From Aequorivita xiaoshiensis (GTDB lineage: Bacteria > Bacteroidota > Bacteroidia > Flavobacteriales > Flavobacteriaceae), in contig NZ_JAIRBB010000001.1 in NCBI RefSeq assembly GCF_022008395.1, positions 496,001-560,000 of the forward strand: a DNA stretch of 64,000 bases, written 5' to 3'. Under the pieces are notes generated by a model. That model saw only the letters and a program-made list of their open reading frames with translations, was not told the origin of the DNA and did not search any database. Made by a program: the position numbers and the translations under genes. This document shows, one piece after another, positions 25,401 to 33,547 of this stretch. Position 1 is the first letter of the stretch. The number at the start of each line of letters is the position of its first letter.

Positions 25401-25897
25401 ACGGTGAAAATGGTAAAGACGGAAAAAATGGGAATTCTGGTAGTGAAAATGATGGAGATAAGGAAGGTGGCGGGGATAGTGAAGAAATGAACGGTGAACT
25501 TTTTGAAATATACAAGCAACAACAAGAACTTAGGCAGCAACTCCAAGATAGATTAAGCAAAGAAGGTTTAAATGGTAATGGTGGTGCTTTACTAAAAAAA
25601 ATGGAGGGGATCGAACAACAATTACTCGATAAAGGTTTTAACCAAAATACGCTTCAGGAAATCTTAAATCTTAAATATGAACTTTTAAAATTGGATGAAG
25701 CCGATTTTGAACAAGGGCAGGAAACGAGAAGAGAGGCTGAAACTAATTTTAAAGATTATAGAAACAACATTCAATTGTCACCAGAAGAGATAAAAAAATA
25801 CTTTAATACAACTGAAATTTTAAATCGGGAGGCCTTACCTTTGCGCCAAGATTACAAAAATAAGGTTCAAGACTATTTTAAGGGTAAAAATGAATGA
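22487..25897 (+). CDS. DUF4175 family large membrane coiled-coil protein
   Basis: A 1136-residue protein of a Bacteroidota-typical family. Two transmembrane helices lie near the N-terminus (about 23-47 and 57-78) and a third around 152-170, followed by a large beta-rich extracytoplasmic region (about 190-490). A long Lys/Glu/Gln coiled coil follows (about 500-760), then a Met/Gln/Ser-rich part. Between about 930 and 1000 there is a low-complexity Gly/Gln/Glu/Asp run of GQEGQ and GEGQGQG units. The C-terminal 100 residues are again ordered. It overlaps ybeY by 4 bases (ATGA), so the genes are translationally coupled. The function is unknown; a structural envelope role is plausible. Confidence 0.85.
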   Translation: MSTFSIIQQKLEEFIRKYYTNELIKGSILFFAIGLLYLLITLLVEYFLWLNPLGRRILFWTFIIVEIGLFLRFIAFPLAKLFKLQKGINYEEASRIIGNHFPEVSDKLLNVIQLNHNKHESELLAASIDQKASELQPIPFKSAINFKTNAKYLKYVAIPVVIFFLFSALGGSDIFSSSYKRVVQYDTAFEPPAPFSFFVLNENLNAIENSSFVLKVKAEGSAIPENASITYNGESYYMQQTMPGTFEYTFQQPVENISFNLKANKVTSRQYVLDVVKTPSLLNYEMVLDYPTYTGKRDEILKSTGNATIPEGTRVRWNLITKNTEFVSLKTADTSYSFVPKNESFHFDKTVYNKLDYTITTSNEKLKDYENLAFTLNVVKDQYPEISVQSKQDSVDIQRVLFLGQISDDYGLTKLRLVYFPEGEEKLAKTEALPINKTNFDQFTYSFPGNLELDEGVAYEYYFEVFDNDVIHNYKSSKSAVYSFRKLTKSEFEDEQFKNQQDAIKGLDKSLDDLKEQKESLDELSKMQKEKNELNYNDKKKLENFIKRQKQQEEMMKNFSEEMKKELDNFQPENKENDPFKEELQKRLEENEERLKENEKLLEELEKLQDKINKEELTDKLEKLAKQNKNQEKNLEQLVELTKRYYVEKKAEKLAEELFKMGEEQEKLADKPESENTKEAQEQLNKKFEDYQKQMNELQEENEGLKAPMDIPQDKTGEQEVEQEQQKATDKLEDQKPSEAGKSQKKAGEKMKEMSKQMQMQMQSGGMESMEEDLKMVRQIVDNLVVFSFEQENLMEDFKKIEYGNPIYGIKLNVQNDLRTNFEHIDDSLFALSLRQPMIGSQITTSLIEIQYNLDKSLERLAENQLRQGIGNQQYTMTGSNDLAVLLNEVMSNMQMQMSMAMGSGSGEGMPSPGSGTGKEFQLPDIIEGQESLGEKMKNAMNKGQEGQEGQEGQGEGEGQGQGEGDGQGDGDGENGKDGKNGNSGSENDGDKEGGGDSEEMNGELFEIYKQQQELRQQLQDRLSKEGLNGNGGALLKKMEGIEQQLLDKGFNQNTLQEILNLKYELLKLDEADFEQGQETRREAETNFKDYRNNIQLSPEEIKKYFNTTEILNREALPLRQDYKNKVQDYFKGKNE

Positions 25898-26307
25898 TAG
25901 AATTTAATTTTGAAACAGATTTTACATTAGAAAACGAAACTCTTTTAAATGAGTGGATTTCTAAAATTATTGCTTCAGAAGGTTTCGAAGTAGGTGAGGT
26001 TCATTATATATTTTGCGATGATGAATTTCTGCATAAATTAAATGTAGAGTTTTTAAATCACGATACTCTTACCGATGTAATCAGTTTCGATTACAGAATG
26101 GGAAATCAAATCAATGGTGAAATTTTTATTTCTATTGAACGAGTTCAGGATAACGCACAAGATTTTAATAATAGTTTTGAGGAGGAATTACATCGTGTAA
26201 TGATTCACGGAATTCTTCATTTCTGTGGTTATAAAGACAAAACAGATGAAGAGGAAGCTTTAATGCGTAGCAAGGAAAATGAAGCTTTGTCTATTTTAAA
26301 TGGCTAA
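25894..26307 (+). CDS. ybeY: rRNA maturation RNase YbeY
   Basis: A 137-residue zinc-dependent endoribonuclease family member acting on 16S rRNA 3' maturation and ribosome quality control. The core HGILHFCGYKDK (105-116) supplies H105 and H109, but the third ligand position of the classic H-x3-H-x5-H motif is D115 instead of histidine. I believe this is a lineage variant seen in Bacteroidota (recall), not decay, because the rest is intact, including the conserved LNVEFLNHDTLTDVISFDY segment. It is coupled to the upstream DUF4175 gene by a 4-base overlap and precedes mnmG. Confidence 0.92.
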   Translation: MIEFNFETDFTLENETLLNEWISKIIASEGFEVGEVHYIFCDDEFLHKLNVEFLNHDTLTDVISFDYRMGNQINGEIFISIERVQDNAQDFNNSFEEELHRVMIHGILHFCGYKDKTDEEEALMRSKENEALSILNG

Positions 26308-26328: not shown

Positions 26329-26360
26329 TTGTTTAATGTTAGATTATTATTGTAATTTTG
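26329..26360 (+). promoter_or_regulatory. Promoter of mnmG: TTG, 21-base spacer, TAATTTTG
   Basis: A -33 TTG at 26329-26331 and a -7 box TAATTTTG at 26353-26360 are separated by 21 bases, inside the 17-23 range for Bacteroidota. Transcription would begin near 26366, just upstream of the parS palindrome. This is the best two-element promoter I found in the window. Confidence 0.6.
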
Positions 26361-26387
26361 CACCCCTTTTTTAATAAGAAAACTAAA

Positions 26388-26403
26388 TGTTCCACGTGGA
26401 ACA
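26388..26403. promoter_or_regulatory. parS centromere-like site 1 (perfect 16-base palindrome)
   Basis: TGTTCCACGTGGAACA is a perfect inverted repeat matching the bacterial ParB-binding parS consensus TGTTnCACGTGnAACA. It lies in the mnmG 5' leader, between the promoter and the preferred start codon. parS sites cluster near oriC in most bacteria. A second copy lies after mnmG. Confidence 0.88.
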
Positions 26404-26416
26404 ATTGAAAGAATAT

Positions 26417-28288
26417 ATGTTTGAAAGTGAATATGATGTTATAGTAGTTGGTGCTGGTCATGCAGGTTCAGAAGCCGCGGCCGCAGCTGCTAATTTAGGT
26501 TCTAAAACTCTTTTAGTTACCATGAATTTACAGACCATTGCTCAAATGAGTTGCAATCCTGCTATGGGTGGAATTGCAAAAGGTCAAATAGTTCGTGAAA
26601 TAGATGCCCTTGGAGGTTATAGTGGGATTGTTTCCGACAATTCTGCAATACAGTTTAAGATGCTTAATAAATCTAAAGGACCTGCAATGTGGAGTCCGAG
26701 AGTTCAGAGTGACCGAATGCGTTTTGCTGAAACTTGGAGGTTGATGTTAGAACAAACACCAAATCTAGATTTCTATCAAGAGATGATCTCTGGTATTATA
26801 GTTGAAAATGGAATTGTAAAAGGAGTTAAAACTTCTCTTGGTTTAGAGATTAAAGCCAGATCTGTGGTACTTACAAATGGTACTTTTTTAAATGGTTTAA
26901 TTCATATTGGTGAAAAACAATTTGGAGGAGGACGTGCCGGTGAAAAAGCGTCGACAGGAATTACTAAAGATTTAATTGATTTAGGTTTTGAAGCAGGAAG
27001 AATGAAAACAGGAACACCACCTAGAGTGGATGGTCGATCTTTAGATTTTACCCAAATGATTCCTCAACCGGGCGATGAGGTACCAGAGAAATTTTCATTT
27101 ACCGACTTAACTAAACCTTTAACCAAACAGCGCTCTTGTCATATGAGTCATACAAGTTTGGATGTACATAATATTTTAAGAGAAGGTTTTGATAGGTCTC
27201 CAATGTTTAATGGAGCAATTCAAAGTACGGGTCCACGTTATTGCCCATCAATAGAAGATAAAATTAATCGTTTTGCTGATAAGGATAGACATCAACTTTT
27301 TGTAGAGCCTGAAGGATGGAATACTGTTGAATACTATATCAATGGTTTTTCAACTTCTTTACCCGAGGATATTCAGTTTAAAGCGTTGCGTCAGGTTAAA
27401 GGATTTGAGAATGTAAAATTTTTCCGTCCAGGCTATGCTATTGAATACGATTATTTCCCGCCAACACAATTAAAGCACACGCTAGAAACCAAGATTGTTT
27501 CTGGTTTATTTTTTGCGGGTCAGATAAACGGTACAACGGGATATGAAGAAGCCGCCTCTCAAGGCCTAATGGCTGGAATAAATGCTCACTTAAAAATTAA
27601 GGAAAAAGATCCTTTTATTCTTCAACGTAACGAAGCTTATATTGGGGTTCTAATAGACGACTTAATTACAAAAGGTACAGAAGAACCATATAGAATGTTT
27701 ACTTCACGTGCTGAATATAGAACGTTGTTAAGACAAGATAATGCTGATTTCCGTTTAACGCCTAAATCTTTTGAGATTGGTTTAGCCGACGAAAATCGTA
27801 TGAGAAAGATGGAAGAGAAAAGAGAAAAGTCTAAAGCTTTTGTTCAATTTTTTAAGGAGACAAGTTCCACACCAGAAGAAATAAATCCTATTTTCGAAGA
27901 AAAAAAATCTGCCTTAGTTTCTCAAAGTGATAAGATGTTTAAGTTTTTCTCTCGTCCAGAAATAACAATGGAGGATATGATGCAAATTGATTCGGTGAAA
28001 GAGTTTATTAGAGAAAATGAATTAGATTCTGAAATGATTCAACAAGCAGAAATCCAAGTTAAATATTCAGGGTATATTGCTAAGGAAAAAAATAATGCCG
28101 ATAAATTGAATCGTTTGGAAGGATTAAAAATTCCTGAGTCTTTTGATTATTCTAAATTGAAATCTCTTTCTTATGAAGCAAGAGAAAAACTTACCAAAAT
28201 AAAACCAGCTACCGTTTCACAAGCTTCTAGAATTAGCGGTGTTTCTCCAAACGATGTTTCTGTTTTGTTAGTATATATGGGACGTTAA
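26417..28288 (+). CDS. mnmG: tRNA uridine-5-carboxymethylaminomethyl(34) synthesis enzyme MnmG (GidA)
   Basis: With MnmE, this FAD enzyme builds the cmnm5 modification at wobble U34 of certain tRNAs in the cytosol. The N-terminal dinucleotide-binding motif is VVGAGHAGSEAAAAAANLG, and the family blocks MGGIAKGQIVREIDALGG-like and GYEEAASQGLMAG are intact. From the ATG at 26417 it is 623 residues. An in-frame ATG at 26387 would add ten residues encoded by the parS palindrome, so I prefer the later start, which yields the usual MFESEYDVIVVGAG beginning. The gene is flanked by parS sites on both sides. Confidence 0.95.
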   Translation: MFESEYDVIVVGAGHAGSEAAAAAANLGSKTLLVTMNLQTIAQMSCNPAMGGIAKGQIVREIDALGGYSGIVSDNSAIQFKMLNKSKGPAMWSPRVQSDRMRFAETWRLMLEQTPNLDFYQEMISGIIVENGIVKGVKTSLGLEIKARSVVLTNGTFLNGLIHIGEKQFGGGRAGEKASTGITKDLIDLGFEAGRMKTGTPPRVDGRSLDFTQMIPQPGDEVPEKFSFTDLTKPLTKQRSCHMSHTSLDVHNILREGFDRSPMFNGAIQSTGPRYCPSIEDKINRFADKDRHQLFVEPEGWNTVEYYINGFSTSLPEDIQFKALRQVKGFENVKFFRPGYAIEYDYFPPTQLKHTLETKIVSGLFFAGQINGTTGYEEAASQGLMAGINAHLKIKEKDPFILQRNEAYIGVLIDDLITKGTEEPYRMFTSRAEYRTLLRQDNADFRLTPKSFEIGLADENRMRKMEEKREKSKAFVQFFKETSSTPEEINPIFEEKKSALVSQSDKMFKFFSRPEITMEDMMQIDSVKEFIRENELDSEMIQQAEIQVKYSGYIAKEKNNADKLNRLEGLKIPESFDYSKLKSLSYEAREKLTKIKPATVSQASRISGVSPNDVSVLLVYMGR

Positions 28289-28294
28289 CAATAT

Positions 28295-28310
28295 TGTTTC
28301 ACGTGGAACA
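28295..28310. promoter_or_regulatory. parS centromere-like site 2
   Basis: TGTTTCACGTGGAACA has the CACGTG core and both AAC/GTT arms, with a single asymmetric position in the palindrome. It starts 7 bases after the mnmG stop, so it could not be there for coding reasons. It is 1.9 kb from parS site 1. Confidence 0.88.
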
Positions 28311-28344: not shown

Positions 28345-29190
28345 TTGGAAACTAATTCTAACATACACTTATCGGTAAAGGATTATATGGTCTCAGGAGA
28401 AACCTTTAATTTGGTATATAATGAAGAATTAGACTTCTTAAAAACTGTACCACAACCTAAGGAGGAAGATCTTTATAAATATTATGAAAGCGAAGATTAC
28501 ATTTCTCACACCGATGAGAAAAGAGGAGTGTTTTCATTCCTATATCAAACTGTAAAAAAGTGGTCGTTAAAAAATAAGACAAATTTAATTTTCAAGGAAA
28601 ATTATGGCGTTGGTTCACTATTGGATGTAGGAGCTGGAACTGGAGACTTTTTGATTGCAGCTAAAAATAACGGTTGGAAAGTTGCCGGAGTCGAACCAAA
28701 TAAAAATGCTCTTAAGTTAGCTTTTGAAAAAGGAATCGAATTAGAATCTAATTTGGATAAATTTGTCGGAAATCAATTTGATGTCGTTACCCTATGGCAC
28801 GTTTTGGAACATATTCCTAATTTGGAGGAAACAGTTATGAAATTATCTAAGTTGGTAAAACCTAATGGGAATTTAATAATTGCCGTTCCAAATTTTAAAA
28901 GTTACGACGCCAATTATTATAAAGAATATTGGGCTGCTTATGATGTGCCTCGCCACCTATGGCATTTTTCAAAAACTTCAATTGAAAAACTATTTGCTAA
29001 TGAGTTTACGCTTGATAAAATTAAACCGATGATATTCGATTCATTTTATGTGAGTCTACTTTCGGAAAAATATAAAACAGGAAATAAATTTTCATTAAAA
29101 GCTTTTTGGATAGGTCTTAAGTCAAATTTAAGTGCTAAACAATCCAAAGAATACTCTTCGCACATTTATTGCTTCAAAAAAGCAAAATAA
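28345..29190 (+). CDS. Class I SAM-dependent methyltransferase
   Basis: A 281-residue protein with a Bacteroidota-type N-terminal zinc-less domain (residues 1-80) and a Rossmann methyltransferase domain. Motif I is LLDVGAGTGDF (92-102) and the acidic loop V-x-x-V-E-P follows near 117; the post-motif LWHVLEHIPN is also typical (methyltransferase type 11/23). The start is TTG at 28345. The substrate is unknown. It lies just after parS site 2 and shares no evident operon with holB, which is convergent. Confidence 0.85.
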   Translation: METNSNIHLSVKDYMVSGETFNLVYNEELDFLKTVPQPKEEDLYKYYESEDYISHTDEKRGVFSFLYQTVKKWSLKNKTNLIFKENYGVGSLLDVGAGTGDFLIAAKNNGWKVAGVEPNKNALKLAFEKGIELESNLDKFVGNQFDVVTLWHVLEHIPNLEETVMKLSKLVKPNGNLIIAVPNFKSYDANYYKEYWAAYDVPRHLWHFSKTSIEKLFANEFTLDKIKPMIFDSFYVSLLSEKYKTGNKFSLKAFWIGLKSNLSAKQSKEYSSHIYCFKKAK

Positions 29191-31981: not shown

Positions 31982-33547
31982 ATGAAAGTTAATAAAATCC
32001 TTCCACTTATGTTGATGCTATTCTTTAGTATGAGTTATGCACAACAAGGAAAGAAACAGAGCGAAAGTATTGATACTAAAAAAATCAAAGTTGTTGACTC
32101 TATTAAAGTCACTAAAATTTCTAGTGATTTACCAACCACAATTGTTGCTACAGGAGTAAAAGATAGTATTGTTTACAATCTGAAAGATATGGCATTGGCC
32201 AGAAAAAAGGATAGTTTGTGGCTTAAGGAGCTTTACAAGTCCGATCTTTTTGATGATATTTATAATAGCATTGTAAACCAAGAGTACGAGCCTGTTGAAT
32301 ACGAAGAACTTCCTACTGAAGTTTTAAAACAGCGTTTAAAAGAACTAGATGCTCGCACACCTTTTAATGTTGAGTACAATCCTTCGTTAGAAAGTGTAAT
32401 TAAGCAATACCTCAAAAACAGACGTCGCGGAATTGAGCGATTAATGGGTTTAAGTGAGTACTACTTCCCACTGTTTGAACAGGAATTAGACAAGCACAAT
32501 CTTCCATTAGAATTAAAATATTTAGCAATTGTTGAATCTGCGCTTAATCCATCGGCTAAGTCTAGGGTTGGAGCAACTGGCTTATGGCAGTTTATGTATC
32601 CTACAGGTAAGATGTTTGGATTGGATGTAAATTCATATGTTGATGAGCGTTCAGACCCTATTCGTTCTACCGAGGCAGCTTGTAAATACCTAAAAAGCTT
32701 AAATAACAGTTTTAACGATTGGGATTTGGCCCTTGCAGCTTACAATTCAGGACCTGGGAATGTATCAAAAGCAATCCGTCGTTCTGGCGGAAAAACAAAC
32801 TATTGGGATTTACGTAGCTTTCTTCCACGTGAAACAGCGGGATATGTGCCTGCTTTCTTAGCGACAATGTACATCTTTGAATATGCCGAAGAACACGGAT
32901 TTAAAAAGCAAGCAGCGAGGATACCATACGTAGCTACAGATACAATAAGAGTTAAGCAACAAATTACATTAGATCAAGTTTCAAAACTCACAAACCTAGA
33001 TATAGAAGAATTAGAGTTTTTAAATCCTGCGTATAAATTGGGGATTATTCCTGTAGTTAAAGGAGAAAACTATACCCTTAGATTGCCATTAACATCAGTT
33101 GGTACGTTTGTAAACAATGAAGATGCTATTTATGCACATCTTAATAAAGAACAGGAAAATGTAGAAGAAAAGGCCCCAGAAATGTACGATCAACCTAAAA
33201 AGGTTCGGTATCGCGTACGAAGAGGAGATTTCTTAGGTAAAATTGCCCAACGATATGGTGTTAGAGTTAGCCAAATTAAGAATTGGAATGGGATGCGAAG
33301 CAACAACTTGAAAGTAGGTCAGAATTTAATTATTTATCCTAAAAAGAATCCTAGAGACATAGCGAGTAATACTTCTGCAAAAAGAACTAACACTGCCGAA
33401 AAAATTTACACAGTGAGAAGTGGCGACTCATTATGGACTATTTCTCAAAAATTTCCTGGTGTTTCAGTACAGAACCTTAAAAAATGGAACGATATTCGTG
33501 GTAATAATATAAAGCCCGGAACTAAACTTAAAATTTATAAAGGATAG
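31982..33547 (+). CDS. mltD: Membrane-bound lytic murein transglycosylase D with two LysM domains
   Basis: A periplasmic enzyme that cleaves peptidoglycan glycan strands, making 1,6-anhydro products. A signal peptide (1-20, ending SYAQQ) is followed by a GH23 domain (about 135-300) with catalytic E185 in AIVESALNP and the GLWQFM and AAYNSGPGNV blocks. Two LysM peptidoglycan-binding domains lie at about 409-455 and 474-521. Here the protein lacks a lipobox and ends with the second LysM. The conserved LPRET codons happen to carry a third parS-like sequence. A DUF4837 lipoprotein gene follows 20 bases later. Confidence 0.93.
   Translation: MKVNKILPLMLMLFFSMSYAQQGKKQSESIDTKKIKVVDSIKVTKISSDLPTTIVATGVKDSIVYNLKDMALARKKDSLWLKELYKSDLFDDIYNSIVNQEYEPVEYEELPTEVLKQRLKELDARTPFNVEYNPSLESVIKQYLKNRRRGIERLMGLSEYYFPLFEQELDKHNLPLELKYLAIVESALNPSAKSRVGATGLWQFMYPTGKMFGLDVNSYVDERSDPIRSTEAACKYLKSLNNSFNDWDLALAAYNSGPGNVSKAIRRSGGKTNYWDLRSFLPRETAGYVPAFLATMYIFEYAEEHGFKKQAARIPYVATDTIRVKQQITLDQVSKLTNLDIEELEFLNPAYKLGIIPVVKGENYTLRLPLTSVGTFVNNEDAIYAHLNKEQENVEEKAPEMYDQPKKVRYRVRRGDFLGKIAQRYGVRVSQIKNWNGMRSNNLKVGQNLIIYPKKNPRDIASNTSAKRTNTAEKIYTVRSGDSLWTISQKFPGVSVQNLKKWNDIRGNNIKPGTKLKIYKG
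32821..32836. promoter_or_regulatory. Possible parS site 3 inside mltD
   Basis: TCTTCCACGTGAAACA differs at one position from the B. subtilis-type consensus TGTTCCACGTGAAACA. It encodes the conserved LPRET residues, so chance from coding constraint is possible. Confidence 0.45.

Follow-up and report, generated by a model that had tools for sequence, protein, structure and literature searches.

Two parS-type sites flank mnmG in Aequorivita xiaoshiensis and recur beside mnmG across the Bacteroidota

We analyzed a 64-kb stretch of the draft genome of Aequorivita xiaoshiensis (hereafter the window; positions 496001-560000 of contig C11) and identified two 16-bp parS-type sites, one on each side of mnmG. 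The two sites are very probably chromosomal, centromere-like parS elements of a ParABS system that lie near the replication origin and to which ParB is predicted to bind. The features of the locus are listed in Table 1.

Table 1. Features of the window discussed in the text (window coordinates)
Feature	Position	Strand	Remarks
ybeY	25894..26307	+	PF02130; conserved upstream neighbour
Candidate Bacteroidota-type mnmG promoter	26329..26360	+	TTG-N21-TAATTTTG
parS site 1	26388..26403	.	TGTTCCACGTGGAACA; perfect palindrome; 0 mismatches; likely 5' leader of mnmG
mnmG (gidA), likely true extent	26417..28288	+	TIGR00136, PF01134
parS site 2	28295..28310	.	TGTTTCACGTGGAACA; 0 mismatches; 6 nt past the mnmG stop codon
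SAM methyltransferase gene	28345..29190	+	PF13489; conserved downstream neighbour
parS-like near-match	32821..32836	+	TCTTCCACGTGAAACA; one mismatch; within a transglycosylase/LysM gene, codons for LPRET

The sites in the genome and their position relative to the origin

Both 16-mers, beginning at 26388 and 28295, matched the pattern TGTTNCACGTGNAACA without a mismatch, and they fit the degenerate parS consensus TGTTTCACGTGAAACA quoted in PMC10197239 as well as the consensus TGTTNCACGTGAAACA quoted in PMC4409726. A preliminary description of the window had placed two parS-type sites around mnmG, 1.9 kb apart, and its coordinates and consensus proved to be exact. It had also held that the sites were hard to explain by chance, which the counts bore out: when up to two mismatches to the parS pattern were allowed, the window contained three matches as against 0.17 expected per 64 kb, and none of 100 dinucleotide-preserving shuffles of the window yielded three. 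The genome-wide search for copies that the same description had proposed returned exact TGTTnCACGTGnAACA only twice in the whole draft (G000; 3,063,149 bases in 83 contigs), at 26388-26403 and 28295-28310 of the window. There was a single one-mismatch match in the genome, and together with the two exact sites it spans no more than 6.4 kb, all of it in the window. Ten more places with two mismatches were found across five contigs. Since the parS pattern read backwards, which served as the control, gave seven matches at two or fewer mismatches in the same genome, these ten are at about the level expected by chance.

We considered whether the near-match at 32821 might be a third centromere site and rejected this, taking the near-match for a likely coding coincidence, since it is poorly kept in same-genus relatives and in homologues of the gene. 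Among six same-genus relatives the sequence had two mismatches in three (G001, G002 and G015) and three mismatches in the others (G016, G006 and G020), and CACGTG was present in 11 of the 32 homologues that carry the LP[RK]ET motif. One mismatch was retained in Christiangramia sediminis, two Salinimicrobium and Winogradskyella haliclonae. The parS-like sequence at 32821 thus probably reflects the codons in which it lies.

The skew profile of the A. xiaoshiensis genome covered contig C11, which is 729 kb long. Cumulative G-C skew fell from the left end of the contig to a minimum at 477,176, had a shallow floor at about 460-520 kb and rose after about 520,000 to the contig end. The parS sites (C11:522,388-524,310) are at the right-hand edge of this floor, 45 kb from the minimum, while the cumulative G+T excess reached its minimum at 540,988, on the opposite side of the sites. 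The sites thus lie near the turn of the skew, as parS does near the origin in ParABS systems and as the preliminary description had anticipated. For four relatives with single-contig genomes, each sampled at 20 stretches of 20 kb, the position of mnmG was compared with trial origins in a two-arm skew model. No trial origin performed better than mnmG in G016 and G025 (correlations 0.82 and 0.88), where a plateau of about 150 kb fit equally well and sets the resolution. The skew was weak in G002 and G070, and 20.5% and 15% of the trial origins, respectively, fit better than mnmG. DnaA-box clusters were dropped as an origin marker because a scan of C11 revealed none in the vicinity of the sites; the richest 500-bp stretches of the contig held three near-matches each and were more than 100 kb to the left of the window, and all 15 exact TTATCCACA boxes of C11 were outside the window. 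The dnaA gene is on another contig, and in gut Bacteroidetes dnaA is described as an unreliable origin marker (PMC10197239).

Conservation of the sites beside mnmG

We surveyed 39 genomes of the order, comprising 24 of the genus (A. xiaoshiensis included) and 15 from other families. Exact parS was present in 30 of the 39, and the backwards control in one. Within the genus 23 of 24 genomes had exact sites, the exception being a 69% complete genome (G007) with neither an exact site nor a detected mnmG. All 23 genus genomes with a detected mnmG had sites on both sides of the gene, and all 44 exact sites flanked mnmG by their coordinates. Two exact sites were found in 21 of these genomes, and the remaining two (G006 and G020) had one exact 5' site and a one-mismatch 3' site. 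In the genomes from other families (14, with G038 left out), at two or fewer mismatches, both sides of mnmG carried a site in nine and one side in five (G028, G030, G031, G033 and G034).

Among 80 genomes drawn over the phylum, exact TGTTYCACGTGRAACA occurred in 59 and the backwards control in one. An exact site was within 1 kb of mnmG in 52 of the 59 genomes, 81 of the 106 exact sites were within 200 bp of the gene, and mnmG was bracketed by exact sites in 17 of the 59. The other seven (G050, G062, G067, G071, G087, G101 and G109) had no exact site within 5 kb of mnmG; some of these may be contig breaks, and in G062 the exact site is at base 545 of its contig. A one-mismatch site was found somewhere in 19 of the 21 genomes that had no exact site (backwards control, 4 of 21), and it was within 5 kb of mnmG in 17 of the 21, G040, G072, G074 and G092 being the others. 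Overall, a site with at most one mismatch was within 5 kb of mnmG in 69 of the 80 phylum genomes.

We also examined named mnmG loci, taking the best 80 of at least 591 candidates (the best-80 set) and scoring sites with two or fewer mismatches within 1.3 kb of mnmG on the 5' side and within 600 bp on the 3' side. In this best 80 of at least 591, a 5' site was present in 78 loci, a 3' site in 77, and sites on both flanks in 76; the genera included Flavobacterium, Polaribacter, Tenacibaculum, Maribacter, Psychroflexus and Chryseobacterium. The 5' site alone was present in Fluviicola NORP8 and a Flavobacteriales MAG (ZE), the 3' site alone was present in a Bacteroidia MAG (3bin78), and a Capnocytophaga MAG (S28M; L147), whose mnmG is without its usual neighbours, had no flanking site. 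Positions 2-4, 11, 13 and 15 were invariant in the 206 sites of the best-80 set, and the bases just outside the 16 bp were little conserved (77 loci on each side). Since the sites had been selected for two or fewer mismatches, the telling evidence is the weak conservation of the outside bases. Of the loci in this set with enough flank, 70 of 71 had ybeY next to mnmG and 70 of 74 had the methyltransferase gene there. Because these two genes nearly always flank mnmG, a tie of parS to mnmG is inseparable in the named loci from a tie to the syntenic block. The 3' site was absent in three of the four loci where the downstream neighbour was not found.

Several loci had unusual upstream regions or titles. 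Arrays of 4-12 parS-like copies (two or fewer mismatches) were seen upstream of mnmG in L103, L107, L108, L109 (Flavobacterium) and L112. Some of the upstream copies in L108, with a spacing of about 117 bp, had a CACATG core, and upstream sites with CACATG in place of CACGTG also occurred in L114 (Kordia NORP58) and L132 (N1E193). L112 and L118, which are titled Limnohabitans and Chitinophaga pinensis, are Flavobacteriales-like mnmG loci with MnmG 77% and 79% identical to that of the window, which suggests mislabelled or mixed MAGs.

ParB, the predicted action of the sites and its alternatives

A TIGR00180 search of the A. xiaoshiensis genome identified one ParB (171.5 bits, over the cut-off), encoded on contig C54 directly after a parA gene; this is the only parA-parB pair in the genome. 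The preliminary description had noted that parAB is not in the window, and it had named the lack of a parB gene as evidence against a chromosome-partition centromere. The gene is present with an adjacent parA, and this result, the copy number and the skew position all agree with the centromere reading and support it. The protein has the ParB_N, HTH_ParB and ParB_C domains of ParABS proteins, and its residues 40-240 matched solved ParB/Spo0J chains (best E 2.9e-52). We counted the specificity residues by hand along the HTH in Caulobacter ParB numbering, with Q162 as the anchor, and found Q162, G170, K171, R173, N178, Y179, G201 and R204, with S172 replaced by N and a lysine at 184. According to PMC7383237, ParB orthologues show absolute conservation of R173 and G201, these positions are occupied by Q and R in Noc, and K184 is a permissive residue in Noc. 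By these residues the A. xiaoshiensis protein is a ParB of the type that reads parS, and one of its lysines is Noc-like and permissive. TIGR00180 also detected ParB in all 80 phylum genomes. Six genomes of the survey (G005, G008, G010, G011, G016 and G018) had a second ParB-domain match beside the ordinary ParB, in an open frame of 578-616 residues that perhaps derives from mobile elements.

In the A. xiaoshiensis draft, parAB (C54) and parS (C11) are on different contigs. We measured the parB-mnmG distance in all surveyed single-contig genomes with both genes (21 genomes, taken as circular; G038, which had no ParB match, was left out). It ranged from 0.15 to 0.98 of the half-chromosome with a median of 0.62; 12 of the 21 lengths were known to 0.1 Mb only, and for G096 the length was taken from the last base of parB. 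In 19 of the 21 genomes parB was more than 0.2 of a half-chromosome from mnmG, which places these par operons outside the origin domain. The distances were indistinguishable from uniform (KS p 0.41), with the qualification that related genomes are not independent and four belong to one genus. Within this set G040 had no site at mnmG, the sites of G067 were 7-13 kb off, and the nearest sites of G034 had two mismatches. Since parB is far away in the relatives, parS stays by mnmG while parAB wanders. A par operon near parS is a common arrangement and not a functional requirement.

No SMC_prok_B match (TIGR02168) over the cut-off was found in the 39 Flavobacteriales genomes, A. xiaoshiensis included, with the best 13 candidates scored in most. 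The best match in A. xiaoshiensis had 25.5 bits as against a cut-off of 567. In 38 of the 39 genomes the matches were no more than weak, whereas the model scored over the cut-off in 10 of 14 control genomes. On TIGR02168 there is thus no sign of the partner for SMC-ScpAB loading at parS, a step that is not required for ParABS itself.

ParB nucleating at parS, spreading and being moved by ParA is described as established ParABS biology (PMC7333895, PMC7022226). For the sites in the window, we infer ParB binding and spreading, the use of CTP and a role in segregation. ParB made from the parAB operon elsewhere would load as a dimer at each 16-bp site, and the loaded protein would close on CTP and slide along nearby DNA, including mnmG between the two sites. 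The resulting complex would mark the newly copied origin region, and ParA would move the ParB-parS complex.

We weighed this reading against others. The palindromes could be operators through which some regulator acts on mnmG and the next gene downstream, and it would suit an operator that site 1 is in the likely mnmG leader and that 69 of the 80 phylum genomes have a site close to mnmG. However, loci with a 3' site are nearly as numerous as those with a 5' site (77 versus 78 in the best 80 of at least 591 loci), the motif has the sequence of the parS consensus, and a ParB with parS-specificity residues is encoded in the genome. The Capnocytophaga mnmG that lacks its usual neighbours has neither site, suggesting that mnmG can do without them. 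We therefore regard operators as very unlikely, and ParB itself might exert a secondary effect on mnmG transcription. It is even harder to see the sites as RNA hairpins (an attenuator or a terminator) around mnmG, a reading to which we give hardly any weight. Both sites are palindromic or nearly so and are at gene ends, as a hairpin would be, yet in the 206 sites of the best-80 loci (of at least 591), by base-pair reasoning on unfolded sequences, the stem-breaking combination C/A occupied positions 5/12 (mnmG strand) in 25 of 83 3' sites and 18 of 123 5' sites. The combination T/G, which keeps a wobble pair, was found in 7 of 83 and 17 of 123, respectively, and the outer positions 1 and 16 vary.

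It was also conceivable that the 16-mers occur by chance or are kept through recent shared ancestry, since ybeY, mnmG and the methyltransferase gene themselves form a conserved block (70 of 71 loci for ybeY, 70 of 74 for the methyltransferase gene) and the sites in the named loci had been picked for two or fewer mismatches. None of the 100 shuffles matched the window count, however, the bases outside are less conserved than the sites (77 loci on each side), and genomes from further classes of the phylum also carry sites by mnmG while almost none of them has the backwards pattern; an origin by chance or ancestry is scarcely credible. It is highly improbable that the protein bound at the sites is a Noc-like paralogue for nucleoid occlusion and not a segregating ParB. 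The Noc model TIGR04285 gave the best NCBIfam score of the A. xiaoshiensis ParB and K184 (by hand count) is the residue permissive in Noc, but the score of 241.1 bits is below the cut-off of 315, R173 and G201 are of the ParB type where Noc has Q and R, and TIGR00180 matched no protein in the genome other than this one, whose gene adjoins parA. Chromosomal parS sites thus remain by far the preferred reading.

As parS, the sites resemble those of Soj-Spo0J of B. subtilis and ParAB of C. crescentus and P. aeruginosa, which likewise have 16-bp parS near the skew origin, a single ParB made up of N, HTH and C domains, and a ParA next to it. They differ from textbook chromosomal ParABS in that parAB of the relatives is away from parS (median 62% of the half-chromosome, 21 genomes) and in that SMC_prok_B did not exceed the cut-off in the 39 Flavobacteriales genomes; the conserved feature is described as an ori domain that contains the par operons and most parS (PMC7022226). 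In Thermus thermophilus, too, parS is tied to a gid gene near the origin, as a single site inside gidB, directly upstream of parA, in a locus about 6 kb from oriC (PMC4409726). Unlike that arrangement, two sites flank gidA/mnmG in the window and parAB is elsewhere. Gut Bacteroidetes are alike in having few parS, clustered at the skew origin, and no known condensin is reported in the two studied; the passages of PMC10197239 on these clusters describe neither a link to mnmG nor a distance to parAB. A cluster of gidA, gidB, parA and parB as origin genes is mentioned as a possible ancestral arrangement (PMC2099444).

There is about an even chance that parS at mnmG, in many cases as a flanking pair, gives the centromere of the Bacteroidota a fixed address, that parAB has drifted to arbitrary positions, and that the usual SMC partner is lacking, in Flavobacteriales at least. 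Under this proposal mnmG with its flanking sites would be a remnant of an ancestral gidAB-parAB-origin cluster, and the two sites would form a paired loading platform served by parAB in trans and without a canonical condensin. While parS, ParABS and their origin bias have long been known, our search of parts of the literature found no description of a phylum-wide parS-mnmG tie with unlinked parAB, which the parS survey of Livny et al. 2007 may have noticed. Looking beside mnmG offers a simple sequence rule for finding the centromere, and roughly the origin, in draft genomes of the phylum, and it is useful where dnaA is a poor origin marker. An arrangement of ParABS with unlinked parAB and no recognised SMC also makes the segregation and folding of such chromosomes testable.

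The start and leader of mnmG

The gene between the sites was identified as mnmG by PF01134 (E 2.5e-160) and TIGR00136 (840.7 bits), and the closest named MnmG locus among the matches listed was that of Aequorivita capsosiphonis (90% identity). The open reading frame begins at 26387, one base ahead of parS site 1, and translates the site as MFHVEQ; the TIGR00136 match starts at residue 16 of this frame, and the next in-frame ATG is at 26417. In the best-80 set the spacing between the nearest 5' site and mnmG was spread over the three frames (32, 26 and 20 of 78 loci), and the mnmG frame was open back to the 5' site in only 31 of 76 loci. Both observations make the start at 26417 more likely, and protein constraint therefore cannot account for the kept 5' site. 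The start at 26387 is probably spurious, with parS read as protein. The preliminary description had put site 1 just before mnmG; the site in fact overlaps the first possible ATG of the frame and is ahead of the likely start.

The candidate promoter in Table 1 follows what we take to be the Bacteroidota-type consensus, and it would plausibly put parS site 1 in the transcribed leader of mnmG. In the best-80 set the last TAnnTTTG ahead of mnmG preceded the nearest 5' site in 43 of 77 loci (21 at 17-70 bp from the site, 19 at more than 190 bp and three overlapping it), followed it in one, and was not found in 33; the background was 285 of 1595 windows of 320 bp (18%). For annotation, MFHVEQ-like N-termini of MnmG proteins may be translated parS.
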